From positions 1-50,420 of IMG/VR virus record IMGVR_UViG_3300037502_002849: a stretch of 50,420 nucleotides of DNA; one strand, given 5' to 3'. A model generated the notes under the pieces. It was not told where the DNA came from and ran no database searches. It was given only the letters and a program-made list of their open reading frames with translations. Of the stretch, positions 305 to 11,600 are shown in pieces. A program made the translations under genes and the position numbers. The DNA comes from a virus. Position 1 is the first letter of the stretch; the number at the start of each line of letters is the position of its first letter.

Positions 305-378
305 GCTCTTGTAGTTAAATGGTATAACACAATCTTGGTAAGATTGAATAGATGGTTCGATTCCATCCTTGAGCACCA
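305..378 (+). tRNA. tRNA-Thr(GGT)
   Basis: The D-stem is GTTA/TAAC, the anticodon stem CAATC/GATTG with loop TTGGTAA (anticodon GGT), and the T-arm GATGG/CCATC around TTCGATT; CCA is encoded. The acceptor strands GCTCTTG and CTTGAGC leave two adjacent U-U mismatches at positions 5-6, which is unusual (compare the perfect acceptor of tRNA-Thr(TGT) at 5247). Confidence 0.85.
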
Positions 379-382
379 AAAT

Positions 383-458
383 GCCAACTTAGCTGATGTG
401 GTCATAGCGGCGGTCTGAAGAACCGTTGAAAGTCGTTCGATTCGACTAGTTGGCACCA
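383..458 (+). tRNA. tRNA-Phe(GAA)
   Basis: Perfect acceptor GCCAACT/AGTTGGC, anticodon stem GCGGT/ACCGT with loop CTGAAGA (anticodon GAA), T-loop TTCGATT, discriminator A and encoded CCA. It lies four bases after tRNA-Thr, so the two are probably cotranscribed. Confidence 0.93.
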
Positions 459-466
459 TAAACATA

Positions 467-495
467 TTGACATATTTTGCGTGTGATTATATAAT
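467..495 (+). promoter_or_regulatory. Consensus sigma70-type promoter
   Basis: A perfect -35 TTGACA (467-472) and a perfect -10 TATAAT (490-495) are separated by exactly 17 bp. It sits about 20 bp before tRNA-Leu(TAA) and would drive the tRNA and small-gene array. It belongs to a repeated promoter class in the window (1176, 6835, 8818, 11624, 13723, 18061, 21953). Confidence 0.88.
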
Positions 496-515
496 AGAAA
501 CAAGTAAAAGATTTT

Positions 516-600
516 GCCCGGGTGGTGGAATGGTAGACACAGCAGACTTAAAATCTGCCGCCGAATAGGCGTACCGGTTCGAGTCCGGTCTCGGGTACCA
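516..600 (+). tRNA. tRNA-Leu(TAA)
   Basis: Class II tRNA with a normal long variable arm. The anticodon stem GCAGA/TCTGC encloses CTTAAAA (anticodon TAA). Acceptor GCCCGGG/CTCGGGT pairs with two wobble pairs; CCA is encoded. Contrast with tRNA-Leu(TAG) at 1482, which has lost its long variable arm. Confidence 0.94.
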
Positions 601-616
601 AATATAGGAGAGTTTT

Positions 617-769
617 ATGCCAATGTATGAAACAACTGTGCGTACATCACAAGGTGAAGAAAAGAAACGTGTGTATGCAGACAATGTGCAGGAAGCAAAA
701 AAACTATTCGAACAACTGTACGGCGGTCCTAGGGCAGTGCCTTACATACCCAAAGTAGTACCAAGCTAG
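617..769 (+). CDS. Small hypothetical protein, 50 aa
   Basis: An unrecognised 50-residue protein beginning MPMYETTVRTSQGEE and ending in a proline-containing tail (VPYIPKVVPS). A good ribosome binding site (TAGGAGAG) lies about 6 bp before the ATG at 617. The middle is charged and likely helical (about residues 12-34), with no membrane segment. It is wedged between tRNA-Leu(TAA) and a structured non-coding stretch and probably shares the promoter at 467. Function unknown; the start is supported by the Shine-Dalgarno sequence. Confidence 0.65.
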   Translation: MPMYETTVRTSQGEEKKRVYADNVQEAKKLFEQLYGGPRAVPYIPKVVPS

Positions 770-777
770 TAGTAAGA

Positions 778-1003
778 TTAAGGAACTAAGGTTCAATAAA
801 CAACCGAAAGGGCCAAATGTTTGCCGGAAGTGAACATAAGGCGAAATTATAGATTTCTTGTTTGGTGTCAAAGAAGCCCCAACAGTACAGTGGTAAAGGT
901 GAGATACCGATGAACTCCATGTTAGGCGAGACTAATAGAGCAGGTGCTGTAACACTTGGGTCGCCACAGGTGAAAACTAAACCAAAACTCTGTGGTTCCT
1001 TAA
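778..1003 (+). ncRNA. Candidate structured RNA in tRNA array
   Basis: A 9-bp perfect inverted repeat closes a 226-nt domain: TTAAGGAAC (778-786) with GTTCCTTAA (995-1003). Inside are CCACAG...CTGTGG, GGTA...TACC, a CCGAAAGG GNRA-type hairpin, and GTTCA...TGAAC. There is no T-arm, so it is not a tRNA. An open frame across it (862-1056) runs into the next tRNA and has no ribosome binding site, so I read the stretch as RNA. I do not recognise the family; large phage RNAs such as GOLLD or ROOL also occur beside tRNAs, but I cannot assign it. Confidence 0.5.
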
Positions 1004-1011
1004 TCGTGCTA

Positions 1012-1086
1012 CTCGCTGTAGTTCAATGGATAGAACAAGACACTCCTAAGGTTTAGATCTCAGTTCGATTCTGGGCAGCGAGGCCA
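1012..1086 (+). tRNA. tRNA-Arg(CCT)
   Basis: Perfect acceptor CTCGCTG/CAGCGAG, D-stem GTTC/GAAC, T-arm CTCAG/CTGGG around TTCGATT, discriminator G and encoded CCA. The anticodon loop CTCCTAA gives CCT. The anticodon stem AGACA/GGTTT has an A-G mismatch next to the loop. Confidence 0.85.
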
Positions 1087-1090
1087 ATAT

Positions 1091-1166
1091 CGGGCTTTGG
1101 TGAAATGGATAATCATGTCAGTCTTCGAAACTGATGTTAGGGGTTCGAATCCTCTAAGCCCGGCCA
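1091..1166 (+). tRNA. tRNA-Arg(TCG)
   Basis: Acceptor CGGGCTT/AAGCCCG is perfect. The anticodon stem TCAGT/ACTGA encloses CTTCGAA (anticodon TCG, reading CGA). T-arm AGGGG/CCTCT around TTCGAAT, discriminator G and encoded CCA. Confidence 0.9.
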
Positions 1167-1175
1167 AAAAATATG

Positions 1176-1204
1176 TTGACAAAGATTTAAATTTCAAATA
1201 CAAT
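1176..1204 (+). promoter_or_regulatory. Sigma70-type promoter before tRNA-Glu
   Basis: TTGACA (1176-1181) and TACAAT (1199-1204) with exactly 17 bp between them. It lies just after tRNA-Arg(TCG). The leader 1205-1251 up to tRNA-Glu contains no gene that I can see. Confidence 0.85.
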
Positions 1205-1251
1205 TTGATCTGTTGTTAAAAAAGTTCTTTAAAAATTAAAAGTTAGTCAGT

Positions 1252-1327
1252 GCACCATTCGTCTATCGGTTTAGGACAACGCCCTTTCACGGCGTAAAGA
1301 GGGGTTCGATTCCCCTATGGTGTACCA
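1252..1327 (+). tRNA. tRNA-Glu(TTC)
   Basis: Acceptor GCACCAT/ATGGTGT, anticodon stem ACGCC/GGCGT with loop CTTTCAC (anticodon TTC), T-loop TTCGATT, encoded CCA. First gene downstream of the promoter at 1176. Confidence 0.93.
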
Positions 1328-1330
1328 TTT

Positions 1331-1462
1331 AGTAGTAGCATAGCTCGTGGGGCTCGATCAAGCCTAACCTTGTTCAAAGCGGGAAGCCTGTGATACTAGT
1401 AAAGTGTCTGTTCTAAACAGCACACATCAGGTAGCAAGAGAATAGTAAACTGTGCTACTACT
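1331..1462 (+). ncRNA. Candidate structured RNA closed by 13-bp stem
   Basis: AGTAGTAGCATAG (1331-1343) pairs with CTGTGCTACTACT (1450-1462), 13 bp with one G-U. Inside are hairpins GGCT...AGCC and CTGTT-CTA-AACAG flanked by GTG/CAC. There is no T-arm and no anticodon arm, so this is not a tRNA with an intron. It starts three bases after tRNA-Glu and ends about 20 bp before tRNA-Leu, so it could be liberated by tRNA processing at both ends. Family unknown. Confidence 0.55.
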
Positions 1463-1481
1463 AAATGGTAAGTATAATATT

Positions 1482-1558
1482 GCCCCGGTGACGGAATTGG
1501 TATACGTGTCGGTCTTAGAAGCCGAATTTTAGGAGTTCGACTCTCCTCTGGGGCACCA
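1482..1558 (+). tRNA. tRNA-Leu(TAG) with short variable loop
   Basis: Acceptor GCCCCGG/CTGGGGC, a Leu-like D-arm (ACGGAATTGGTATACGT), anticodon stem TCGGT/GCCGA with loop CTTAGAA (anticodon TAG, reading CUA), T-arm AGGAG/CTCCT and encoded CCA. The variable region is only ATTTT (5 nt), whereas bacterial tRNA-Leu normally has a long variable arm. The anticodon would read Leu codons and is not an amber suppressor (that would be CTA). Its charging identity is therefore less certain than its anticodon. Confidence 0.85.
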
Positions 1559-1564
1559 AACAAT

Positions 1565-1640
1565 GCGGGTGTAGCTCAGCTGGTAGAGCGCCACGTTGCC
1601 AACGTGATTGTCGTCGGTTCGACTCCGATCACCCGCTCCA
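1565..1640 (+). tRNA. tRNA-Gly(GCC)
   Basis: Acceptor GCGGGTG/CACCCGC, anticodon stem CCACG/CGTGA (four pairs plus a C-A end) with loop TTGCCAA (anticodon GCC), T-arm GTCGG/CCGAT around TTCGACT, discriminator T and encoded CCA. Confidence 0.94.
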
Positions 1641-1644
1641 ATTA

Positions 1645-1749
1645 AGGCAGACCTGTAACCATATTCTGCCTCCGCTGACGCGAAAACAGGATGGGCTGCG
1701 CTCACGGGGTTCGTTAGGTTCCCGACACAACAATACCTATCAAAATTTA
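1645..1749 (+). ncRNA. Candidate pseudoknotted RNA between tRNAs
   Basis: Stem AGGCAGA/TCTGCCT (1645-1651 with 1665-1671) has a loop starting CCTGT (1652-1656), which can pair with ACAGG at 1686-1690. That makes an H-type pseudoknot. A further hairpin CGGG/CCCG follows near 1700-1725. The stretch lies between tRNA-Gly and tRNA-Ser and has no open frame of note. The order P1-P2-P1'-P2' recalls nested-pseudoknot ribozymes, but the extra stem an HDV-like fold needs is not apparent. Confidence 0.42.
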
Positions 1750-1750
1750 T

Positions 1751-1840
1751 GGAAGTGTGGCAGAGTCCGGTTTATTGCACCTGTCTTGAAAACAGACGAT
1801 CCGAAAGGGTCCGTGAGTTCGAATCTCACCGCTTCCACCA
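1751..1840 (+). tRNA. tRNA-Ser(TGA)
   Basis: Class II tRNA. Acceptor GGAAGTG with CGCTTCC (six pairs and a G-C end), anticodon loop CTTGAAA (anticodon TGA), long variable arm, T-loop TTCGAAT, encoded CCA. It ends 3 bp from the stop of the convergent nitroreductase gene. Confidence 0.94.
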
Positions 1841-1842
1841 AG

Positions 1843-2445
1843 TTATTTTATAAAAGTGACTTGTATAGGTTCTTTAGGTATTGTTGGGAAAACAAAAGTT
1901 GAATCTGTATGGTGTATTCTTCTATTTCTATTTGAATCACTATACCCGATACCCATCATCAAAACAACATTTGAATCTATATCTAGTATTTGTTTGATAG
2001 GTTCGTTGGCAAAACATGCGCAACATCCGGTACCGTAGCCCATCATAGAGGCTAATAAATTGAGATATCCGGCAGCGATACCTACAGCCATATGACGATC
2101 TCTTTCTAAAGTAGATGATTCGTCACCATGTACTGCTTGCTTGTACCATTGTCCATAACCATTATTTTCAGTGAATACAAATAATGTATTAGCAAGTGTT
2201 TGACTATTTGTAATAGTTTTTCCGTCGTAACTAAACCCACTAGTTTGCTCATGCACTTTTTCAATAATTTCCCTATTAGTAATTACATGTAATTTATAGA
2301 AGGAAACATTCTGTTTACTTGGGCAGTTAGTTGCCGCAAATATCAGTGCGTCCAAGTCCTCTGTGGGCATGGATTTAGAAAGATCCCAGTTTCTTTGACA
2401 ATGCTGACTTTTAATAACAGCTTTTTTAATTTGATCTAGTTGCAT
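1843..2445 (-). CDS. Nitroreductase-family protein
   Basis: A 200-residue protein with the look of the FMN-dependent nitroreductase fold, which reduces nitro groups, quinones or flavins with NAD(P)H. Supporting parts are the N-terminal RNWDLSKSMPTEDLDALIFAA (residues about 18-38), the central segment with MAVGIAAGYLNLLASMMGYGTG, and the late glycine-rich MMGIGYSD that normally contacts FMN. Length is normal for the family. It is one of the few minus-strand genes, convergent with tRNA-Ser and divergent from the radical SAM gene. The intergenic gap has an AATAAATA late-promoter-like box on its strand. Substrate is unknown; in a phage, a role in redox or cofactor metabolism is inference. Confidence 0.8.
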   Translation of the reverse strand: MQLDQIKKAVIKSQHCQRNWDLSKSMPTEDLDALIFAATNCPSKQNVSFYKLHVITNREIIEKVHEQTSGFSYDGKTITNSQTLANTLFVFTENNGYGQWYKQAVHGDESSTLERDRHMAVGIAAGYLNLLASMMGYGTGCCACFANEPIKQILDIDSNVVLMMGIGYSDSNRNRRIHHTDSTFVFPTIPKEPIQVTFIK

Positions 2446-2467
2446 GGCAATGTCCTATTTAAAACTA

Positions 2468-2475
2468 TATTTATT
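2468..2475 (-). promoter_or_regulatory. T4-like late promoter box
   Basis: On the minus strand this reads AATAAATA, 22 bp before the nitroreductase ATG. It fits the TATAAATA-type late box of T4-like phages. Similar boxes precede 17489, 23331, 42258 and 44406. Confidence 0.5.
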
Positions 2476-2506
2476 AGAAAGTATCGATGTAAAAAATAAG
2501 TAAGTG

Positions 2507-3613
2507 ATGGAAAATAAATCACTGTGTGTTTTGCCGTTTTATCATATGGATATACAACCAAACGGAGTTGTAAAACCCTGTTGTGAATTTTCTCTAGATG
2601 AAATGCCAAGATCAGTTAATGTAAATGACCCCGCTGTTTTTGAATCCGTATTTTTTGAAGATCTACGAAAAAAGATGGCCACTGGTATTCCGATCAAAGG
2701 TTGCAAAAAATGTTATTTTAATGAAACATACTCAAAGAATAGTTTAAGGTTGGAGCATTTAGATAATTTTAAAAAACTATCCGGTAAAGATTTTACAGTG
2801 CCTCTAAAAAACGAATTGGTTTATGTAAATCTTGCACTTAGTAACGTATGCAATAATAAGTGTAGAATGTGTAATAGTCGATTTAGTACCAGTTGGTATG
2901 ATGATGAAAAAAAATTAGGTATAGATATTCCTAAAGGTGTAGTTAATCAAACAACATTTTTTAATTTATTAGATACATCAAAAATAAAATTTGTAAATTT
3001 AACTGGCGGAGAGCCATTATTAGAACAAAAAAAAATAATTGATTTTTTGAATAACTGTAATTTAAAAGAACTAACATTAATCATTACTACAAACGTTACA
3101 GTCATTCCAAATGATGATCTTATTAGTTTATTAAAAGAATGCAAAAAAGTAGAGTGGACTTTGAGTATTGATGCTTACGAATCCTTAAATGATTTTCTTA
3201 GAAAGGGAAGTAATTGGGACGATACTACAAAAAATCTAAGTTGGTACTATAACAATTTTGAACATATCAAAATCAATACAGTAATAAGCATTTATAATTG
3301 TAACTGTTACGATTTACTTTTAGGATTTATAAAAAATAATTTTCCTAAAATAACACACATTCATAGATTGGCTGATGGAGCAGAATGGCTTAGCGTGAAA
3401 AATTTACCCAACTATGCCAAACAAATAATAAAAGAAAAAAATGATTTTATCAAAAATGTTTACAAACTAAATTTTTCTAGTATAATAGAAGCTGAAATAG
3501 ATAAAGAAGGTAACTTGGAATTTTTTAAAGATATGGATCAAAAACTTAACAAGATAAGAAATGAATCTTGGAAAGATCATAATCCAGAACTCTACAAATT
3601 GATTTATGACTAA
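2507..3613 (+). CDS. Radical SAM protein with extra Cys clusters
   Basis: About 368 residues. The CxxxCxxC motif (C115, C119, C122) binds the 4Fe-4S cluster that cleaves S-adenosylmethionine, and TGGEPLL further on is the SAM-binding GGE motif. The N-terminus has additional cysteines (C7, C25-C26, C66, C69) in a QPNGVVKPCC context, as in twitch/SPASM-like auxiliary-cluster domains that usually come after the core; here they precede it. The annotated frame can start at a GTG (2504), but the adjacent ATG at 2507 is preferred. It ends one base before tRNA-Ser(GCT). Such proteins modify peptides, RNA or small molecules; the target here is unknown. Locally this gene is notably AT-rich. Confidence 0.85.
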   Translation: MENKSLCVLPFYHMDIQPNGVVKPCCEFSLDEMPRSVNVNDPAVFESVFFEDLRKKMATGIPIKGCKKCYFNETYSKNSLRLEHLDNFKKLSGKDFTVPLKNELVYVNLALSNVCNNKCRMCNSRFSTSWYDDEKKLGIDIPKGVVNQTTFFNLLDTSKIKFVNLTGGEPLLEQKKIIDFLNNCNLKELTLIITTNVTVIPNDDLISLLKECKKVEWTLSIDAYESLNDFLRKGSNWDDTTKNLSWYYNNFEHIKINTVISIYNCNCYDLLLGFIKNNFPKITHIHRLADGAEWLSVKNLPNYAKQIIKEKNDFIKNVYKLNFSSIIEAEIDKEGNLEFFKDMDQKLNKIRNESWKDHNPELYKLIYD

Positions 3614-3614
3614 A

Positions 3615-3707
3615 GGAAGGATGGCTGAGAGGCTGAAGGCAGCGGTTTGCTAAACCGTCGATCATCTTAAAAGTGGTCCGAGGGTTCGAATCCCTCTCCT
3701 TCCACCA
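3615..3707 (+). tRNA. tRNA-Ser(GCT)
   Basis: Class II tRNA with acceptor GGAAGGA/TCCTTCC, anticodon stem GCGGT/ACCGT around TTGCTAA (anticodon GCT), long variable arm, T-loop TTCGAAT and encoded CCA. Confidence 0.94.
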
Positions 3708-3723
3708 AACAAAAAGGAACTAT

Positions 3724-3909
3724 ATGTTAAGACCCACAGCAAGTTATAGAATGAGTAAAACAACTAAAGCTAGTTTAGCTCTTGGTAAGTTTAAAGATGA
3801 ACATCAAAAAGGTGCTTGGAAGCGTTCAATGATCCAAGCAGAGTTGAGTGCGGCAATCCAACCAAAACGTGAGAAGCCACAGCGGGGTCGTACTGCACCA
3901 ACAGAGTAA
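3724..3909 (+). CDS. Small basic protein, hypothetical
   Basis: 61 residues, strongly basic (many Lys and Arg; tail QPKREKPQRGRTAPTE), no membrane segment. The ATG at 3724 has an AAAAAGGA ribosome binding site about 8 bp before it. The frame is open further upstream into the tRNA, which is not coding. Basic charge and a disordered tail suggest nucleic acid binding, but that is only an inference. I do not recognise the family. Confidence 0.65.
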   Translation: MLRPTASYRMSKTTKASLALGKFKDEHQKGAWKRSMIQAELSAAIQPKREKPQRGRTAPTE

Positions 3910-3916
3910 AGAATAT

Positions 3917-3991
3917 TCCAGTGTAGCACAGCGGTAGTGCAGTTGACTGTTAATCAATTGGTCGTTGGTTCGATCCCAGCCACTGGAGCCA
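3917..3991 (+). tRNA. tRNA-Asn(GTT)
   Basis: Acceptor TCCAGTG/CACTGGA, anticodon stem GTTGA/TCAAT with loop CTGTTAA (anticodon GTT), T-arm GTTGG/CCAGC around TTCGATC, discriminator G and encoded CCA. The CCA end overlaps an 8-bp hairpin (CAGTAAAC/GTTTACTG) that begins the next structured stretch. Confidence 0.93.
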
Positions 3992-4196
3992 GTAAACCCG
4001 GTTTACTGTTTTACGTTATAAAACAGCGTCCCTGAAACGAGAGAACAGGGGGTACACCAGGACTCGACCTTACGGTCCCGCTAACATGGGATACCGAAAA
4101 CAACCTGGGGTGAGGTCTAACGCCTATCCAGAAGAATAAATGTTACGGACAGAGCAACAGCTCAGTCTAGGGCCTATGTGGTGTAGGTAGCTAGAC
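3992..4196 (+). ncRNA. Candidate structured RNA, 5' part of a larger RNA
   Basis: No gene is visible in this stretch. It carries successive hairpins: CTGTTTTA/TAAAACAG (4006-4026), CCCTG/CAGGG, GGAC/GTCC nested within CCAGG/CCTGG, GAGC-AACA-GCTC, and GTCTAG/CTAGAC with CCTA/TAGG nested inside (ending at about 4196). It runs directly into the tRNA-shaped element at 4197-4333, so both may be one RNA of about 340 nt. I do not recognise the family. Confidence 0.5.
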
Positions 4197-4333
4197 ACTT
4201 TATAAATGCTCTTTGAAGTTTAACTACACTGGAGAACGCGAGTTAGGTACTAAGTCGACTAACTACCGAAAGCGCCAGGAAGATACGGAGTTAAACAGTT
4301 TGGTTCGATTCCAACAGAGAGCACCTATAAAGT
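4197..4333 (+). ncRNA. tRNA-like RNA element without anticodon arm
   Basis: GCTCTTT (4208-4214) pairs with AGAGAGC (4316-4322) like an acceptor stem, followed by ACC then T instead of CCA. A T-arm-like hairpin carries TTCGATT (about 4298-4315). In place of D and anticodon arms is one long arm: GTTTAACT/AGTTAAAC (4218-4225 with 4289-4296), then CTGG/CCAG, CGC/GCG and GTTAG/CTAAC. An outer 8-bp stem, ACTTTATA/TATAAAGT (4197-4204 with 4326-4333), brackets it. No 7-nt anticodon loop exists, so it is a tRNA mimic, not a decoding tRNA. Confidence 0.6.
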
Positions 4334-4337
4334 TTAT

Positions 4338-4411
4338 GGCGGGATAGAGTAACGGTAATTCAGGAGTCTCATAAGCTCCAGATCTTGGTTCGATTCCAGG
4401 TCCCGCAACCA
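4338..4411 (+). tRNA. tRNA with CAT anticodon (Met or Ile2)
   Basis: Anticodon stem GGAGT/GCTCC with loop CTCATAA (anticodon CAT), T-arm CTTGG/CCAGG, encoded CCA. The acceptor GGCGGGA/TCCCGCA has an unpaired G1-A72 end. An unpaired 1-72 end is an initiator trait, but the three consecutive G-C pairs of initiator anticodon stems are missing. It could be elongator Met or a lysidine-modified Ile tRNA; the sequence alone does not decide. Confidence 0.85.
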
Positions 4412-4432
4412 ATTACAACGAGGAAAAGTGCT

Positions 4433-4594
4433 ATGGGTGAAAAAGGTGATCCAATGAAAACTAAGACAGGTAAAACACGTCTTGGTCCGCTTAATATTGA
4501 ACAACTAAACAAAATTTTAGAAACTTCTAGTCGTCCCAAGGATAAAGCTAAAATCCTTAATCGAATTAGATTGCTAGAATCTAGGAACAAGTGA
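4433..4594 (+). CDS. Small basic hypothetical protein, 53 aa
   Basis: 53 residues beginning MGEKGDPMKTKTGK, lysine-rich and apparently helical in its second half (NIEQLNKILETSSRPKDKAK). A GAGGAAAAG ribosome binding site precedes the ATG at 4433; an internal ATG at 4454 is an alternative. It lies between the CAT tRNA and the 2OG oxygenase gene, with a 3-bp gap to the latter. Function unknown. Confidence 0.6.
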   Translation: MGEKGDPMKTKTGKTRLGPLNIEQLNKILETSSRPKDKAKILNRIRLLESRNK

Positions 4595-4597
4595 TCT

Positions 4598-5227
4598 ATG
4601 AGATACGCTTGTTTTAATCCTACTATGGTCGCTGTAGAGGATATTCCAGAAGACATTTTTGATAAACTTAAAAATCTAGTTCGAGAAGCACATACTCATG
4701 ACGATCTTAATGATGCAGGAAATCCATCAATAAGCGTCAGAGGCGGTCAGCAGATTCAATTATTGCCCAACATTTTTGATTTAGACGTGACTGATTTAAA
4801 AAAGTATGTTGAAGATTGTTGTAATGAATATTTAGAAAAAATTGTACAGGTCACTGGTCTTAATGAACTTTACAAATACAAGCCTGTGCTGAACAGTGCT
4901 TGGACTATAAAACAATCTAAAGGACACTATCAAGCTCTACATGCACACGAAGCGCACATTAGTGGCAACATTTATATTGATGTGCCTGATTTAGATTCTG
5001 ATAGTGAAGATTCAGACAGTTGTCTAGAGTTTAGATTACCCACAGTTAAAAATGTTTCTAGATTCATCTTTACTGATAGTTGGAGAGTTAAACCTGAAGT
5101 AGCTAAAATGGTAGTATTCCCCAGTCACTTACCACATACTGTTTATCCGTGGAAAGGCAAAGGCAGTAGAACTGTTCTAGCATGGGACGTTGTTTTAGTT
5201 GACAAGACGTTGGTGACGGATATATAA
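4598..5227 (+). CDS. Putative 2-oxoglutarate/Fe(II) oxygenase
   Basis: 209 residues resembling the phage/bacterial 2OG-Fe(II) oxygenase-like family (TIGR02466 type). Such enzymes use Fe(II), oxygen and 2-oxoglutarate to hydroxylate a substrate. Visible parts are a HAHEAHISGNIYI segment near residues 114-127 carrying the first iron histidine, the distal PSHLPHTVYPW segment near residue 176 carrying the second, and an arginine in GSRTVLAWD for 2-oxoglutarate. The double-stranded beta-helix layout and length fit. An acidic insert (DLDSDSEDSDS) lies between the motifs. Substrate unknown; roles in DNA base, tRNA or protein hydroxylation are possible. Confidence 0.7.
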   Translation: MRYACFNPTMVAVEDIPEDIFDKLKNLVREAHTHDDLNDAGNPSISVRGGQQIQLLPNIFDLDVTDLKKYVEDCCNEYLEKIVQVTGLNELYKYKPVLNSAWTIKQSKGHYQALHAHEAHISGNIYIDVPDLDSDSEDSDSCLEFRLPTVKNVSRFIFTDSWRVKPEVAKMVVFPSHLPHTVYPWKGKGSRTVLAWDVVLVDKTLVTDI

Positions 5228-5246
5228 TATAAGATTAATAGTTTTA

Positions 5247-5320
5247 GCCCTTTTAGTTAAATGGTATAACAGTTGATTTGTAATCATCTATTGGCAGTTC
5301 GATTCTGTCAAAGGGCACCA
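5247..5320 (+). tRNA. tRNA-Thr(TGT)
   Basis: Perfect acceptor GCCCTTT/AAAGGGC, anticodon loop TTTGTAA (anticodon TGT), T-arm GGCAG/CTGTC around TTCGATT, encoded CCA. Its D-arm is identical to that of tRNA-Thr(GGT) at 305, suggesting duplication. Confidence 0.94.
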
Positions 5321-5328
5321 AAGTTTTT

Positions 5329-5407
5329 CCGAGTGTAGGATAGCCTGGTTCATTCCGCCTGCTTTGGGAGCAGGATGTCGCAAGTTCGAATCTTGCCACT
5401 CGGACCA
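5329..5407 (+). tRNA. tRNA-Pro(TGG)
   Basis: Acceptor CCGAGTG/CACTCGG, anticodon stem CCTGC/GCAGG around TTTGGGA (anticodon TGG), T-arm GCAAG/CTTGC with TTCGAAT, encoded CCA. Confidence 0.93.
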
Positions 5408-5418
5408 AAAAATTTAAT

Positions 5419-5492
5419 GGGGGATTAGTTAAATGGGATAACATCGGCTTTGCAAGCCGAGATTAACAGTTCGATTCTGTTATCCTCCACCA
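5419..5492 (+). tRNA. tRNA-Ala(TGC)
   Basis: Acceptor GGGGGAT/ATCCTCC (one G-U), anticodon stem TCGGC/GCCGA with loop TTTGCAA (anticodon TGC), T-arm AACAG/CTGTT, encoded CCA. It ends 6 bp before the next ATG. Confidence 0.94.
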
Positions 5493-5498
5493 TATATT

Positions 5499-5999
5499 AT
5501 GAAAAGAATTTGGATTGACGTTAAGGGTCGCAACTGCGACGGATGTACTAAATGCTGTGAAGGATATCTAGTTACCACTATCGCTGGTCACGAAGTTGGT
5601 CCAGGTAAACCTTGTAAATTTATGAGGAAGACCACAGGATGCCAAGTATACTTGGCTAGGCCTTATGATCCTTGTAAAACATTTCAATGCCATTGGAAGG
5701 AAAATACACGAATACCGGATTGGATGAAACCTGACAAGGCCAACGTTATTCTTTTGCTAAAACGAGTTAGCGATTTTAATTATATAAGAATAGTTCGAGC
5801 AGGCATAAGAATTGATCCAAGAATGAATGAGTGGATTCAAGAACAAGTAAAATTGGGTCTGCATTTTGTCGACTACGATGACAACGATGAACTTGTAATT
5901 TACACAGAGAAAGAAGAATTTAAAGAAGCTGTCAGAAAGTCTTTAAAAAATTATGCGGATAAGGTGGGACAGAAAACGTCCAACACCCATCCAAAATGA
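5499..5999 (+). CDS. YkgJ-like Cys-rich Zn/Fe-binding protein
   Basis: 166 residues. The N-terminal half carries cysteines in the arrangement GRNCDGCTKCCEGY, GKPCKFM, TGCQVY and DPCKTFQCHW. This matches the YkgJ-type zinc- or iron-chelating domain, which probably binds an Fe-S or metal centre. The C-terminal third is charged and helical. The ATG lies 6 bp after tRNA-Ala, leaving little room for a ribosome binding site. Many bacterial members are of unknown function. Neighbouring redox and Fe-S genes in the phage (erpA-like, ferredoxin) make a metal-related role plausible. Confidence 0.75.
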   Translation: MKRIWIDVKGRNCDGCTKCCEGYLVTTIAGHEVGPGKPCKFMRKTTGCQVYLARPYDPCKTFQCHWKENTRIPDWMKPDKANVILLLKRVSDFNYIRIVRAGIRIDPRMNEWIQEQVKLGLHFVDYDDNDELVIYTEKEEFKEAVRKSLKNYADKVGQKTSNTHPK

Positions 6000-6016
6000 T
6001 ATAAGCGAGATTATAC

Positions 6017-6151
6017 ATGATATTTGAAATAATGATGTGGGGATTTTTTTCCGCTTGGGGTTGGTTTGGTGCTAGTTATATTAAAGATAAAGTTTGGCCA
6101 CCTGAACCTGTTCCGATAGTAAAAACAGAGAATAAAGTAAAAAATGATTGA
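6017..6151 (+). CDS. Short membrane protein, 44 aa
   Basis: Starts MIFEIMMWGFFSAWGWFG and ends in a Pro/Lys-rich tail. A single N-terminal hydrophobic, aromatic segment (about residues 1-22) suggests membrane insertion. Its TGA overlaps the next ATG by eight bases (6144), implying translational coupling with the membrane protein downstream. No recognised family. Confidence 0.6.
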   Translation: MIFEIMMWGFFSAWGWFGASYIKDKVWPPEPVPIVKTENKVKND

Positions 6152-6389
6152 ATACGTAGTAACTTTTTTTGCTTTATTTTTTACCGATATATTTTACATT
6201 TACTATCTTCGATCAGTGCAGTATGGCAAAGCAGTCTATGCCAGTTGTTGGGCAGTAGTTGTATTTTTAATGGCATGTGTGGCAGTTATAAACTACACCA
6301 CCAATCATTGGTTGTTGATCCCAGCAGGTCTTGGGGCCTTTTGTGGAACCTATGTTGGTATGAAATTAAGAAAAAAGTACGGGGTTTAA
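6144..6389 (+). CDS. Small polytopic membrane protein
   Basis: 81 residues with three likely transmembrane helices (about 5-25, 31-51, 55-72) and a basic end (KLRKKYGV). Translation is probably coupled to the preceding 44-residue membrane protein through an 8-nt overlap, so the two may form a complex. No conserved motif is recognised; the function is unknown. It is followed within 10 bp by tRNA-Gly(TCC). Confidence 0.65.
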   Translation: MIEYVVTFFALFFTDIFYIYYLRSVQYGKAVYASCWAVVVFLMACVAVINYTTNHWLLIPAGLGAFCGTYVGMKLRKKYGV

Positions 6390-6398
6390 AAATAATAT

Positions 6399-6476
6399 GC
6401 GGGTAGACAGGACAAGGGGCGTCCAGCAGCCTTCCAAGCTGAAGATCGCGGAGTTCGACTCTCCCTACCCGCTCCA
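6399..6476 (+). tRNA. tRNA-Gly(TCC)
   Basis: Acceptor GCGGGTA/TACCCGC, anticodon stem GCAGC/GCTGA (ending in a C-A... four pairs) with loop CTTCCAA (anticodon TCC), T-loop TTCGACT, discriminator T, encoded CCA. The T-stem CGGAG/CTCCC has one C-C mismatch. Confidence 0.88.
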
Positions 6477-6493
6477 AACAAAAAGGAAAAATA

Positions 6494-6724
6494 ATGTCTA
6501 AAATTAGCAGCCGTGGCCCTGACGTTGACACAGATAAATGTGTTGAACAAGCAGGTGGTAATAGATTTAATCTAGTTTTAATCGCCGCACAAAGAGCCAG
6601 AGAAATTAGACGTAGACAACAAGATAGTAATCCTGAAGTACACAGTTTACCCTGCGTCAGTGCATTACTTGAAATACAAGAAGGAAAATTGGATAACAAA
6701 CGTTATCTTATGAAAGTAAAATAG
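6494..6724 (+). CDS. rpoZ: RNA polymerase omega subunit homologue
   Basis: 76 residues. The segment GGNRFNLVLIAAQRAREIRR (residues about 21-40) closely follows the bacterial omega signature (GNRFDLVLVAARRARQM in E. coli), and ALLEIQEGKL near residue 57 matches the omega ALREIEEGLI segment. Omega binds the beta' subunit and helps assemble and stabilise host RNA polymerase. A phage copy could replace or compete with the host subunit to alter promoter choice; that is inference. Ribosome binding site AAAAGGAAAA precedes the ATG. It sits between tRNA-Gly and tRNA-Val, and its stop lies in a perfect palindrome. The extra N-terminal SSRGPDVDTDKCVEQ segment replaces the usual short start. Confidence 0.85.
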   Translation: MSKISSRGPDVDTDKCVEQAGGNRFNLVLIAAQRAREIRRRQQDSNPEVHSLPCVSALLEIQEGKLDNKRYLMKVK

Positions 6725-6738
6725 ATTTGCAAATCTAT
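6721..6738. repeat. 18-bp perfect palindrome after rpoZ
   Basis: ATAGATTTGCAAATCTAT is a perfect palindrome overlapping the rpoZ stop codon and ending two bases before tRNA-Val. It lacks a T-tract, so it is more likely an RNA processing hairpin or a protein-binding site than a terminator. Confidence 0.5.
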
Positions 6739-6740
6739 AA

Positions 6741-6815
6741 GCATCCTTAGCTCAGTGGTAGAGCATCTCGTTTACACCGAGAGGGTCGGAGGTTCGAAAC
6801 CTTCAGGATGCACCA
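6741..6815 (+). tRNA. tRNA-Val(TAC)
   Basis: Acceptor GCATCCT/AGGATGC, anticodon stem TCTCG/CGAGA with loop TTTACAC (anticodon TAC), T-arm GGAGG/CCTTC around TTCGAAA, encoded CCA. Last tRNA of the array. Confidence 0.94.
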
Positions 6816-6834: not shown

Positions 6835-6863
6835 TTGACAGACACACCGACTGAACATACAAT
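6835..6863 (+). promoter_or_regulatory. Sigma70-type promoter for RNA/Ro module
   Basis: TTGACA (6835-6840) and TACAAT (6858-6863) separated by exactly 17 bp. The start site would fall near 6870, a few bases before the first RNA element. The start region AGTATTGTAA (6867-6876) recurs just after the -10 boxes at 13746 and 18084. Confidence 0.87.
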
Positions 6864-6882
6864 AGAAGTATTGTAAGTTTTT

Positions 6883-7006
6883 AGGCTAGGTACAGCAAAT
6901 TCCAGACTATGGAACGGCCTAGGGAAGGTAAGGACATCAAACTCCTTACTCTTGGGCGAGGTGAGTTTCGAATTCTCACTTGAAACAAAAAGTAGACAAC
7001 TAGCCT
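6883..7006 (+). ncRNA. Candidate Y-like RNA 1, tRNA-resembling
   Basis: AGGCTAG (6883-6889) pairs with CTAGCCT (7000-7006). Just inside the 5' strand is GTACAGCAAAT, shared with the next two elements. Inside are hairpins TTCCA/TGGAA, GTAAGGA/TCCTTAC (7 bp) and a T-arm-like GTGAG/CTCAC around TTCGAA (near 6961-6979), then an A-rich stretch before the closing strand. Bacterial Y RNAs bind Ro proteins through a closing stem and carry a tRNA-like domain (established for other bacteria). The Ro gene lies about 350 bp downstream. No open frame of note is present. Confidence 0.6.
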
Positions 7007-7017
7007 GTTAAGTTTTT

Positions 7018-7276
7018 AGGATGATTACAGCAATCTCATACTATAACTGAAGCCCATTAATGCAGTAGACGGCGGCTTGGGAAGGCAGGAAATACTGGAG
7101 CCGAAAGGCTTTGAAGGTACTCCAATTCTAGTAGCAATACTAGACGCTAACGGAACTGACGACTAGGGAAAGACCTATATGTGCATATACAGAACTTATA
7201 TGCTAGGCTTGGGGGACTTGAACCGATATACTGGGGATAGGGCCAAGCAGAAAATAAAAACCGTCCCGCTCATCCT
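7018..7276 (+). ncRNA. Candidate Y-like RNA 2, large structured
   Basis: AGGATGA (7018-7024) pairs with TCATCCT (7270-7276). A TTACAGCAATCTC box follows the 5' strand, and AAAATAAAAACC lies before the 3' strand, as in element 1. Inside are many clean hairpins: AAGCC/GGCTT, AGCC-GAAA-GGCT, TCTAGTA-GCAA-TACTAGA (7 bp with a GNRA loop), GCATATA/TATATGC, and GCTTGG/CCAAGC. The element begins 11 bases after the end of element 1 with the repeated leader GTTAAGTTTTTAGG. No coding potential is seen across 259 nt. Confidence 0.58.
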
Positions 7277-7287
7277 GTTAGTTTTAT

Positions 7288-7340
7288 AGAATGCTAACAG
7301 CAATCACTAACTTTACTGCAAATAAAGAAAAACGCATTCT
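7288..7340 (+). promoter_or_regulatory. Third copy of RNA motif in Ro gene leader
   Basis: AGAATGC (7288-7294) pairs with GCATTCT (7334-7340). It is preceded by GTTAGTTTTATAG and followed by TAACAGCAATCAC, and A-rich sequence precedes the 3' strand, exactly as in the two RNAs upstream. The hairpin ends immediately before the ribosome binding site (GAAAGG, 7341-7346) of the Ro gene at 7354. A protein that binds this motif could block its own translation; that is inference. Confidence 0.55.
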
Positions 7341-7353
7341 GAAAGGAAACATC

Positions 7354-8763
7354 ATGAACACATTCGTTCAAGCAATCGCAAATCAAGAAGCCCGTACTGC
7401 CAATGGCATGAAGGCTCGTAAGTCAACTGCTAAGGCAACTGTTGACTTGTTCTACAAAATCGGTGCAAGTCGTGGTAAGGACATTACTGCTGACTTTGTG
7501 GCTGCTTATGTAGAAAATTCTGACCTTGCACTACGTATCGCACAATGGGCACGTGATGTCCGTGGCGGTGCAGGCGAGCGTCAACTTTTCCGTGACATCC
7601 TTGTTCATTTGGAAAAGCGCGATCCAGATGCCGCATTGGCTCTGCTTCGTAAGATTCCAGAAGTAGGTCGTTGGGATGACATCTTTGTTTTCTCTACACC
7701 AGTTCTGAAGTCAGCCGCTTACACAATGTTGGGCGATGCCCTACGTGCTAAGAATGGCCTTGCCGCTAAGTGGACACCACGTAAAGGTAAGGTTGCGGCT
7801 GAAGTGCGAGCATTCTTCGGAATGACTCCTAAGCAATACCGTAAGAGTCTTGTGACTCTTACCAAAGTTGTTGAAACACAAATGTGTGCCAACGACTGGG
7901 ATAACATTAACTTTAGCCATGTGCCTTCTGTGGCAGCTCGTCTGTACAAGAAAGCATTCAACCGTCATACTCCAGCTTTTGCTGAGTATGTGGCTAAGTT
8001 GGTAAGTGGTGATAAGACTGTTAAGGTTAACGCCGATGCAATCTTCCCACATGATGTTATCAAAGGTATCGCACACTCATATGTGAAGCATGACAAGACT
8101 GAAACAGATCATGTCATCGCACAATGGGAAGCTCTGCCAAACTACGTTGGTGATGCCAGCATCATGCCAATCGTTGACGTTAGTGGATCTATGACTTGTC
8201 CAGCAGGTAAGAACACAAACGTTCGTTGTTTGGATGTGGCACTTGGTCTAGGCCTGTACTTGGCTGACAAGAACAAGGGCGTGTTCAAAGACACATTCTT
8301 GACTTTCTCAGACAAGCCAGAATTGGTTACTCTAAAGGGTAACATTGTTCAAAAGCTAGAACAAATGTCTAAGAGCGATTGGGAAATGAGTACTAACCTA
8401 AATGCGGCTATGAAGAAAATTCTAGACGTTGCGGTTAAAGGCAATGTCCCACAAAGCGACATGCCAAAGATGTTGCTGATTTTGTCAGACATGCAGTTCA
8501 ACCAGTGTGCTCGTTTCGACGACAGCGCAATGGAAATGATCGAACGCAAGTTTGCGGATGCAGGTTATACTGCGCCTCAAATTGTGTTCTGGAACCTAAA
8601 CGCAAGTGATAACGTTCCAGTCAAGGCTGACAAGTCGGGTGCGGCTTTGGTCAGTGGATTTAGTCCTAGCATAATGACAGCCCTGCTGTCAGCTGACTTG
8701 GATCAGTTCACTCCAGAAGGTATTATGCTTAAGACTGTAATGGTCCCACGCTACGACCTTTAA
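7354..8763 (+). CDS. rsr: Ro60-like TROVE/vWA RNA-binding protein
   Basis: 469 residues. The N-terminal half (about 1-265) is a TROVE domain with characteristic segments VDLFYKIGASRGK, ALRIAQWARDVRGGAGER and IPEVGRWDDI. The C-terminal half is a von Willebrand A domain with a MIDAS motif DVSGS at about 275-279, and LILSDMQFN further on. In bacteria such Ro (Rsr) proteins form a ring that binds misfolded RNAs and Y RNAs and works with nucleases in RNA quality control. The frame is open to 7291, but the ATG at 7354 has a GAAAGG ribosome binding site, and the extra segment is the RNA hairpin element. Two structured RNAs lie directly upstream. Codon choice looks more GC-rich and regular than neighbours, suggesting high expression. 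A terminator follows. Confidence 0.9.
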   Translation: MNTFVQAIANQEARTANGMKARKSTAKATVDLFYKIGASRGKDITADFVAAYVENSDLALRIAQWARDVRGGAGERQLFRDILVHLEKRDPDAALALLRKIPEVGRWDDIFVFSTPVLKSAAYTMLGDALRAKNGLAAKWTPRKGKVAAEVRAFFGMTPKQYRKSLVTLTKVVETQMCANDWDNINFSHVPSVAARLYKKAFNRHTPAFAEYVAKLVSGDKTVKVNADAIFPHDVIKGIAHSYVKHDKTETDHVIAQWEALPNYVGDASIMPIVDVSGSMTCPAGKNTNVRCLDVALGLGLYLADKNKGVFKDTFLTFSDKPELVTLKGNIVQKLEQMSKSDWEMSTNLNAAMKKILDVAVKGNVPQSDMPKMLLILSDMQFNQCARFDDSAMEMIERKFADAGYTAPQIVFWNLNASDNVPVKADKSGAALVSGFSPSIMTALLSADLDQFTPEGIMLKTVMVPRYDL

Positions 8764-8789
8764 ACGTTGTAATAATACAACAGTTTGAA

Positions 8790-8814
8790 TAGGGCCTTAG
8801 GGCCCTATTTTTTT
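8790..8814 (+). terminator. Rho-independent terminator after Ro gene
   Basis: TAGGGCC and GGCCCTA form a 7-bp stem with loop TTAG, followed by seven or more T. Almost the same hairpin recurs at 48691. Confidence 0.9.
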
Positions 8815-8817
8815 AAC

Positions 8818-8846
8818 TTGACAAAATCAAAATATTATCGTATAAT
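8818..8846 (+). promoter_or_regulatory. Consensus sigma70-type promoter
   Basis: TTGACA (8818-8823) and TATAAT (8841-8846) with a 17-bp spacer, immediately after the terminator. It drives the phosphatase-metallophosphoesterase run starting at 8868. Confidence 0.9.
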
Positions 8847-8867
8847 TAACAATTGAAGGAGAGCGAT

Positions 8868-9368
8868 ATGTTAAACCCGTGGATTCAAAATGTATCGTTG
8901 GCAGATGTTAAAAAAGGCCATCATATTGATGCGGGCATTAACAGTATGCTGATACAAATTGTAGATCCTGCTCTAGGTTTCCCTGAACCCAAATTTAACT
9001 TTAAAGAAATTCATCAATTTGAATTTTTGGATTTGGAGAAGGATGATTTCGCCCTAGAAGAGGAAATGAAGATTACTGATGCACAGGCAGACCAATTGGT
9101 AAAACTTTTGCAACACGCATTGGAAAATAAAATGAATGTTGTGGTTCATTGCGTGGCAGGTGTATGCAGATCGGGTGCAGTCTGCGAAGTGGGAGTTATG
9201 ATGGGATTCCGTGATGCTGAAGCATACCGTAGTCCCAATCTGCTAGTCAAGCACAAAATGATGAAAGTTTTGGGTTGGACTTATGATGAAAACGAGCCAC
9301 ACACTATTAATGGTCTAGTATTGGATTCTGGAATTATTGTTCCAAAAAATTATGGAGGTGATGTGTAA
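8868..9368 (+). CDS. Dual-specificity/tyrosine phosphatase-like protein
   Basis: 166 residues with the cysteine-phosphatase signature HCVAGVCRSG (nucleophile C95, phosphate-binding R101). These enzymes remove phosphate from Tyr/Ser/Thr or from nucleotides or RNA 5' ends through a phosphocysteine. The start at 8868 has a strong AAGGAGAG site and lies about 20 bp from the -10 box; an earlier in-frame ATG at 8853 is inside the leader. It overlaps the next gene by one base (TAATG). Length fits the compact phage DSP-like family. The substrate is not evident. Confidence 0.82.
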   Translation: MLNPWIQNVSLADVKKGHHIDAGINSMLIQIVDPALGFPEPKFNFKEIHQFEFLDLEKDDFALEEEMKITDAQADQLVKLLQHALENKMNVVVHCVAGVCRSGAVCEVGVMMGFRDAEAYRSPNLLVKHKMMKVLGWTYDENEPHTINGLVLDSGIIVPKNYGGDV

Positions 9369-9572: not shown

Positions 9573-10181
9573 ATGATGCCTAGTGTATTTTTGGTAAGCG
9601 ACACGCACTTTGGTCACACTGGCGTGTGCCGCTTCACACGTAACGATGGTGTTACAAAACTTCGTCCCTGGGATGATCCCAACGAAATGGACGAGGCTAT
9701 GATCAAGGCTTGGAACGAACGTGTTAAACCCACAGACAAAGTCTATCATTTAGGTGATGTTGTTATTAATCGTAAGGCATTACCTACGTTAGCTCGTTTA
9801 AATGGTGACAAGGTTTTGATCCGCGGTAATCACGACATATTCCGTGACGACGAGTATAGACAGTACTTTAGAGAATTACGTGCATATCATGTTATGAACG
9901 GAATGATCTTGAGTCATATTCCTGTACATAGTGATAGCTTAGGTCGTTTTGGTGTTAACATTCATGGACACACCCACGCAAATCGTGTAAAGAAACCTAG
10001 AGGTGTTGATGCACGTACTGGTGAAATTTTATACAGTGATGAAAACGATGTTCGTTATCATTGCGTCTGCGTAGAACAAACACCTGACTTTGCACCTATC
10101 TTATTTGAAGATGTTATTCGTAACATTGAAGCAGAAGGTGGCACTGTTGGGTTTAAGAACGGCAACGGTCCTACAATGTAA
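9573..10181 (+). CDS. Calcineurin-like metallophosphoesterase
   Basis: 202 residues with all signature blocks of the family: DTHFGH near residue 10, GDVV near 62, RGNHD near 87, SHIPVH, and HGHTH near 132. These bind two metals and hydrolyse phosphoester bonds. AAAGGAGG precedes a double ATG at 9573/9576. It resembles small stand-alone phage and bacterial phosphoesterases; the substrate (nucleotide, nucleic acid or phosphoprotein) is unknown. A second, unrelated-looking member is at 14921. Confidence 0.87.
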   Translation: MMPSVFLVSDTHFGHTGVCRFTRNDGVTKLRPWDDPNEMDEAMIKAWNERVKPTDKVYHLGDVVINRKALPTLARLNGDKVLIRGNHDIFRDDEYRQYFRELRAYHVMNGMILSHIPVHSDSLGRFGVNIHGHTHANRVKKPRGVDARTGEILYSDENDVRYHCVCVEQTPDFAPILFEDVIRNIEAEGGTVGFKNGNGPTM

Positions 10182-11138: not shown

Positions 11139-11600
11139 ATGCCTAAATGTTATCAACTAGTCGGAATCCCAGGTAGTGGAAAGTCTACCTGGGTTGCCAA
11201 TCAAGATTGGCTTGATGGAACACACTATGTTTCTACAGATAGTTATGTAGAAGCCTATGCCAAAAGTCAAGGTAAAACTTACTCTGAAGTATTTGTTGAA
11301 TACATGCCCACAGCAGTTGATTTAATGGTGGAGGATGTTATTAGGGCAAGAGAAGCCGGATTGGATATTATTTGGGATCAAACATCAACCACTGTCAAAA
11401 GTCGGTTGAAGAAGTTCAATATGTTGCCCGATTATTATCATATTGCTATAGTATTTGGAACACCTGAACAACAGGAATTATATCGTCGATTGATGAGCCG
11501 TCCAGGCAAAGACATTCCGGATCATGTTATTGCCAGCATGATTGCCGATTTCGAAATGCCTACAGAAGAAGAAGGTTTCAAAGAAATTTGGAGAACTTAA
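11139..11600 (+). CDS. P-loop kinase, polynucleotide kinase-like
   Basis: 153 residues with Walker A GIPGSGKST (residues about 9-17), a DTDSY-type acceptor region (STDSYVEAYA), and DQTSTTVKSR near residue 87, where T4 PseT-like kinases place their substrate-contact residues. This is the fold of the polynucleotide 5'-kinase and zeta-like kinases: it transfers phosphate from ATP to a nucleic acid end or small molecule. No phosphatase domain is attached, but separate phosphatases are encoded upstream (8868, 9573). A terminator overlaps its stop. RNA end healing is a reasonable but unproven role. Confidence 0.75.
   Translation: MPKCYQLVGIPGSGKSTWVANQDWLDGTHYVSTDSYVEAYAKSQGKTYSEVFVEYMPTAVDLMVEDVIRAREAGLDIIWDQTSTTVKSRLKKFNMLPDYYHIAIVFGTPEQQELYRRLMSRPGKDIPDHVIASMIADFEMPTEEEGFKEIWRT

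Follow-up and report, generated by a model that had tools for sequence, protein, structure and literature searches.

The DNA analyzed here, hereafter the window, is a 50,420-base virus fragment in which 17 tRNAs lie at positions 305-6815 and a gene coding for a Ro-like protein comes after the last of them. Upstream from this gene, a sigma-70 type promoter (TTGACA-17-TACAAT; 6835-6863, plus strand) matches 11 of the 12 consensus positions; the promoter scan is weak, with 3.6 sites expected by chance in the region, and only two sites score 11 or 12. Both this consensus promoter and the placement at the end of the tRNA array had been pointed out in a preliminary description of the sequence, and both stand. 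The same strand then carries three RNA modules, RNA1 (6883-7006), RNA2 (7018-7276) and RNA3 (7288-7340), followed by a Shine-Dalgarno sequence (AAAGGAAA, 7342-7349) immediately 3' of the CUG of RNA3, a layout that is the same in relatives of the window. The Ro-like gene (7354-8763, 469 amino acids) starts at ATG 7354, where the alignments of its homologs begin, and is followed by a terminator-like hairpin of the intrinsic type (8787-8810; 10 pairs, then a T run).

Other features surround the operon. A perfect promoter (12/12 consensus positions, spacer 17) is located at 8818-8846, directly past the terminator. The tRNA array also harbors genes for a radical SAM protein and a 2OG-Fe(II) oxygenase (2504-3613 and 4598-5227), as well as a small gene between tRNAs (6494-6721) that matches Rpb6/omega (PF01192, 2e-9) and thus represents a phage omega-like subunit. 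On the 3' side of the Ro-like gene lie genes for dual-specificity phosphatase-like, metallophosphoesterase and polynucleotide-kinase-like (AAA_33) proteins (8853-9368, 9573-10181 and 11139-11600), which could possibly form an RNA end-healing set.

RNA1 and RNA2 are closed by 7-bp stems (AGGCTAG/CTAGCCT and AGGATGA/TCATCCT, respectively), with an ACAGCAA box located two bases inside the 5' strand, an A-rich 3' side and a terminal CUG. The stems and boxes are as the preliminary description had them, except that it counted two RNAs in the operon: there are three modules, the third being RNA3, a minimal clamp in the mRNA leader that was overlooked and that carries the same closing stem (AGAATGC/GCATTCT), box, A-rich side and CUG. 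RNA1 folds with an energy that beats those of shuffled sequences (z -3.4 to -3.8) and contains the T-arm-like hairpin noted earlier, TGAG-TTTCGAA-TTCTCA, whose TTTCGA loop is kept in four relatives. The clamp of RNA2 encloses a structured insert of approximately 220 nt, for which 28 orthologs show compensatory changes in the closing stem and in three internal helices; its folding energy does not differ significantly from that of shuffles (z -1.0) and was discarded as support. No tRNA features are recognizable in RNA2 or RNA3, and the T-arm-like hairpin is the only one in RNA1. Searches with RNA1 and RNA2 against known Rfam families gave nothing at E up to 10 apart from a chance miRNA match, and a group I intron core, of which some stretches of RNA2 are reminiscent, was dropped for lack of a family match.

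The 469-residue product matches DUF7788 (8e-50), DUF2828 (1e-26) and PHROG 850, 'RNA-binding protein'. The gene had been described as TROVE-vWA (Ro60), and this holds for the fold and not for the Pfam family: the TROVE profile does not match the protein at E up to 10, and besides DUF7788 and DUF2828 Pfam lists only weak VWA_2/HTH matches within the same limit. A sequence search of the PDB returned nothing real, and assignments by NCBIfam and PADLOC were dropped, having yielded no match. The AlphaFold2 model (pLDDT 85.6, pTM 0.85), however, superposes onto Xenopus Ro with a Z-score of 20.4 across 413 residues, onto the Ro60 of Thermus phage phiLo (PDB 9l5y) with 16.6 and onto Deinococcus Rsr with 14.2, while unrelated chains, including vWA proteins, score around 10 or below; the ten best-matching chains are all Ro60/TROVE. 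The protein is thus predicted to adopt the Ro60 fold over its full length, with a helical-repeat ring and a vWA domain. It shares the MIDAS residues with Ro60/Rsr proteins (D275, S277, S279, T347 and D379, in the DxSxS, T, D arrangement), which are intact and invariant in 23 phage homologs, whereas sequence identity to Ro60/Rsr proteins is only 10-18%. It belongs to a DUF2828/DUF7788 branch that the Pfam TROVE model does not recognize. Homologs of the gene are present in 681 of 50,697 phage records, including laboratory models such as Felix O1.

The three modules of the window follow a single rule, which we call the clamp: AG-N5-NN-ACAGCAA, a variable insert, an A-rich stretch, the complement of N5, and CUG, the distance from AG to ACAGCAA being nine bases. 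The resulting helix is a covarying 7-bp stem bounded by AG and CUG and adjoined by an internal loop with CAGCA on the 5' side and A-rich sequence on the 3' side; the box generalizes to [ATG]CAGCA[ACT]. When the full motif was searched for in 145 divergent loci, it was found 115 times on the strand of the gene, as opposed to 2 times on the other strand and 1.6 times in shuffles. Among 52 aligned minimal modules, both-side changes occur at 5 of the 7 pairs, but these modules were selected for pairing, as were those used to train the covariance model R1 (see below), so that these counts are partly circular. Two tests were freer in this respect. In the first, 230 distinct elements with 44 different stem 5-mers were picked by AG-N7-ACAGCAA alone, ignoring pairing; 197 of them (86%) are followed within 340 bases by their own complement and CTG, versus a mean of 5.0% and a maximum of 8.9% when the 5-mers were swapped between elements (200 shuffles). 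In the second, the 3' strand of the leader stem was defined by position, as the last CTG before the start codon, and 12 of 12 distinct pairs are fully complementary, versus a mean of 1.5 and a maximum of 8 for shuffled partners; a few of the distant leaders had originally been located by a search that requires pairing. The modules thus have closing stems that covary and are not due to chance, which, together with the RNA2 orthologs, bears out the covariation on which the preliminary description had staked its proposal.

The clamp family extends well beyond the window. In approximately 75 IMG/VR relatives the order is the same: upstream of the gene, modules are spaced at distances of around 460, 300 and 58 bases, joined in some by a fourth at 600-700 bases. 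Clamps also adjoin homologous genes in Felix O1 and in Listeria, Vibrio, Aeromonas, Campylobacter, Staphylococcus, Bacillus and Mycobacterium phages. Applied to 45 divergent loci, R1 identified 54 modules, every one on the strand of the gene and some in phages outside the training set; its matches include Bacillus PJN02, Staphylococcus CF1, Campylobacter F367, Mycobacterium Snenia and contigs binned to Roseiflexaceae. The window RNA1, which was absent from the training set, was also found by R1 (6880-7010, 26.4 bits, E 4e-4, the E-values of this model being rough). In a set of contigs binned to Roseiflexaceae or other bacteria (L130-L135), the same gene (47-57% identity) is accompanied by clamp modules; these are probably phage contigs.

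All whole records that were examined with R1 contain matches (17/17), most of them within about 15 kb of the Ro-like gene, and individual phages carry between 2 and 9 modules. Felix O1 has four, among tRNAs downstream of the gene, and phiM12, which has the gene, a single R1 match 8 kb away. In KVP40-like Vibrio phages, which also have the gene, no modules were found nearby. R1 gave no matches in T4, phiKZ and SPO1, where the gene is absent too, although three phages make a weak control; T4 rnaC and rnaD were thus rejected as family members, since T4 has no R1 match at E up to 1. A search of the open literature, which leaves the main subscription papers on Y RNAs outside its reach, returned no DUF2828 phage RNAs, no phage Ro60-RNA and no Class I RNA (see below) from organisms other than amoebae. 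The clamp RNAs appear to be an undescribed RNA family that accompanies the Ro-like gene in very different phages.

What the clamps enclose is variable, and part of it is related to tRNA. A perfect T-arm is present in 27 of 187 modules of at least 80 bases, against 0.35 in shuffled inserts, and in 11 of 20 distinct T-arm inserts it leads into a 3' acceptor strand, which a 4-10 base loop connects to the matching 5' acceptor strand, with a D-arm after that. Judging from this order, such inserts are permuted tRNAs, opened in the anticodon arm and closed at the acceptor end. A discriminator and CCA are encoded in L216 (CTTCCCC-A-CCA-TTTAC-GGGGAAG), L126 (CCACCAC-A-CCA-ACTAT-GTGGTGG) and L087. In Snenia, three clamps lie downstream of the Ro-like gene (L100:3482-3745), with UGGAC/GUCCAGU ends replacing UAG/CUGU, and by eye the middle module (L100:3542-3675) has the same permuted tRNA order. 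Clear permuted tRNAs are nevertheless a minority of inserts; minimal modules that lack a tRNA are the commonest class.

A mirror format also exists, in which tRNA genes of approximately 93-120 bases hold the clamp in their anticodon arm, where a few loop bases connect the two clamp ends (CU-GAUA-AG, CU-GUUA-AG, etc.). Examples are found at L094:1722-1836, L199:3064-3178, L091:3715-3827, L085:4012-4125 and L087:3896-4138, and further tRNA genes with a closed clamp hairpin, CAGCA box included, in or instead of the anticodon arm at L091:966-1079 and L211:3074-3166; some mirror-format genes are annotated as tRNA-Sup, tRNA-Pseudo or tRNA-Ser. Eight such hairpin clamps lie on the strand of the gene and none on the other. 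The two formats are related by circular permutation and reduce to a single architecture, in which the clamp replaces the anticodon loop of a tRNA body. This arrangement, with the clamp either outside a permuted tRNA or inside a tRNA anticodon arm, together with the CCA encoded in L216, L126 and L087, would be expected if clamps were processing or splicing devices, by which permuted genes give rise to circular or split tRNAs, and if Ro acted as a maturation chaperone instead of holding a stable RNP. We find this quite unlikely, given that the commonest modules have no tRNA to mature, that RNA2 is devoid of tRNA features, and that many clamp-bearing tRNAs lack a regular anticodon arm.

Among phages closely related to the window, module one holds, at the same place, one of three unrelated insert types, of which the window RNA1 represents the one with the conserved TTTCGA hairpin; the insert is therefore exchanged while the clamp stays. 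Such swapping is also what DNA-level cassettes would produce, the covarying hairpins being attC-like recombination sites and insert replacement a cassette exchange. This explanation is highly improbable: the modules keep a strict orientation with the gene, the CAGCA box is invariant and single-stranded, one module is placed against the Shine-Dalgarno site, and clamps are recognized by an RNA model derived from transcripts of amoebae (see below).

In Y RNAs, the paired 5' and 3' ends constitute the stem that is bound by Ro. The phage modules share with the bacterial Y RNAs (YrlA, with Rsr/Ro60) the location of small RNAs beside a Ro-fold gene and the paired ends, to which relatives of the window add a clear tRNA-like effector domain where RNA1 of the window has a T-arm-like hairpin, and differ from YrlA in that the clamp sequence is their own, a copy of the clamp is present in the leader, and the inserts are swappable and not always tRNA-like. 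None of the window RNAs matches a curated Y RNA model, including YrlA (RF02553) at E up to 10, in keeping with the earlier suggestion, now examined with Y RNA covariance models, that the likeness is one of plan and not of sequence. A single phage insert matches RF02553 (L094:1681-1755), with 26.4 bits against a threshold of 69. The preliminary description also regarded two RNAs with one Ro gene as unusual, which does not hold: two Y RNAs are encoded in the rsr-yrlBA-rtcBA operon of Salmonella (PMC7790460), and up to nine modules occur in a phage. Neither the likeness to Dictyostelium Class I RNA (see below), the strongest at the sequence level, nor the permuted tRNA inserts had been anticipated there, and the roles that it suggested, in quality control or in redirecting a nuclease, may or may not apply. 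Precedents for function exist in the same literature, since Rsr, Y RNA and PNPase form a Ro-RNA-enzyme assembly in Deinococcus, and the tRNA-like part of YrlA has been proposed to block an anticodon nuclease (PMC7790460).

Taken together, these observations lead us to favor, as the likely reading, a phage Ro ribonucleoprotein in which clamps bind Ro, inserts serve as effectors and RNA3 is a feedback operator. In this scheme, a single transcript would carry three modules built on a common clamp that is bound by the DUF2828 Ro-fold protein, and cleavage in the AU-rich linkers would release RNA1 and RNA2. Ro would hold these RNAs by the clamp and display the inserts as exchangeable effectors, in many cases tRNA bodies that lack a functional anticodon, which could dock Ro onto tRNA-binding enzymes during infection (nucleases, end-healing and ligation enzymes, maturases), thus recruiting or occupying the tRNA-handling machinery. 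RNA3, a clamp with no insert, would allow free Ro to repress its own translation until RNA1 and RNA2 suffice. The Ro-like gene thereby gains a family of candidate RNA partners that obey defined sequence rules, as well as a proposed feedback switch open to testing, and a first glimpse is obtained of what such RNAs may display, namely swappable domains with permuted tRNAs among them.

The placement of the leader element is central to this proposal. In the window, 13 bases separate the RNA3 clamp from the start codon, and the clamp abuts the Shine-Dalgarno site; of 60 loci compared, 53 keep a distance of 13-16 nt between leader clamp and start codon, and 58 have a Shine-Dalgarno site after the clamp. 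RNA3 is probably a regulator of the Ro-like gene, with a translational operator as the proposed form, and the simplest reading of its position would be negative feedback titrated by the free RNAs. A need for feedback would fit the toxicity that overexpression of the LeBron mycobacteriophage Ro-like protein causes (PMC13148394). By strict criteria, a leader module is present in only 34 of 145 divergent loci, so that any such feedback cannot be universal.

The same position against the Shine-Dalgarno site, the single promoter and the AU-rich linkers would also be compatible with modules that act exclusively in cis, as leader or spacer elements controlling the processing, stability or translation of a polycistronic transcript; repression would then be exerted by Ro or a host protein, and no free small RNAs would exist. 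We consider this unlikely, because Felix O1-like phages and Snenia have their modules on the 3' side of the gene, either interspersed with tRNAs or ahead of a terminator, others are several kb away from it, and inserts hold whole permuted tRNA bodies, some with an encoded CCA.

Class I RNAs have been linked to the origin of multicellularity in dictyostelids. Among Rfam families, the closest to the phage clamps is Dictyostelium Class I RNA (RF01414), which RNA3 matches over the full length of the model (7289-7341, 28.6 bits, E 0.0028). In 67.7 kb from 11 phage loci, RF01414 gives 13 matches (22.9-29.8 bits), all full length, all at clamps and all on the strand of the gene. The chance expectation for these, derived from the definition of the E-value, is approximately 0.002 (10/4227 families); AT-rich sequence may inflate such matches, but the opposite strand has none. 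In whole records, 9 matches were obtained in 5 phages and 0 in 14 control genomes. Since all scores (28.6 for the window and no more than 29.8 for other loci) are below the gathering threshold of 41.5, the phage RNAs are not filed as Class I members.

Class I RNAs start with AAG, end with CUGU, are 42-65 nt in length, and have a 6-bp stem conserved by pairing only and an 11-nt motif; they have been found in no organism outside the dictyostelids (Kjellin et al. 2021, PMC7919456). Phage clamps start with UAG or AAG and end with CUG, followed in most by U, so that the family consensus is UAG/AAG ... CUUACAGCAA ... A-rich ... CUGU. Both groups combine a stem conserved by pairing only with a variable middle and an A-rich 3' side, and RNA3, with 53 nt, falls within the Class I length range. 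Next to the 5' strand, the Rfam consensus of the 11-nt motif is CCUUACAGCAA, where the phage consensus has CUUACAGCAA and the window has CUAACAGCAA, GGUACAGCAA and AUUACAGCAA. The differences are that the known partner of Class I RNA is an amoebal RRM protein, Rnp1A, that Class I genes have a DUSE promoter whereas the phage operon has a bacterial-type one, and that many phage modules contain long inserts, unlike Class I RNA.

On the strength of these sequence likenesses, phage clamps and Class I RNAs might constitute one RNA family that partners DUF2828-type Ro proteins, a proposal that we put forward tentatively while leaning slightly against it. The likeness may reflect shared ancestry, horizontal transfer or independent adaptation to one and the same protein surface. 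If the family is one, Class I RNAs would be Y-RNA-like RNAs, and in phages this clamp would serve to attach permuted tRNAs that have no anticodon to a viral Ro protein. Viral RNPs would thus be tied to an orphan class of amoebal RNAs, and what Class I RNAs bind becomes a testable question.

Two structured RNAs of known families were also observed in the vicinity of Ro-like genes. A ROOL RNA (L099:467-1018; 84 bits, below threshold) precedes the Ro-like gene by approximately 1 kb in Listeria phage LMTA-94, where a tRNA-splicing ligase gene is found downstream, and a freshwater-1 RNA (L177:841-902; 72.9 bits, above threshold) lies within the tRNA array of a phage, not far from its Ro-like gene.
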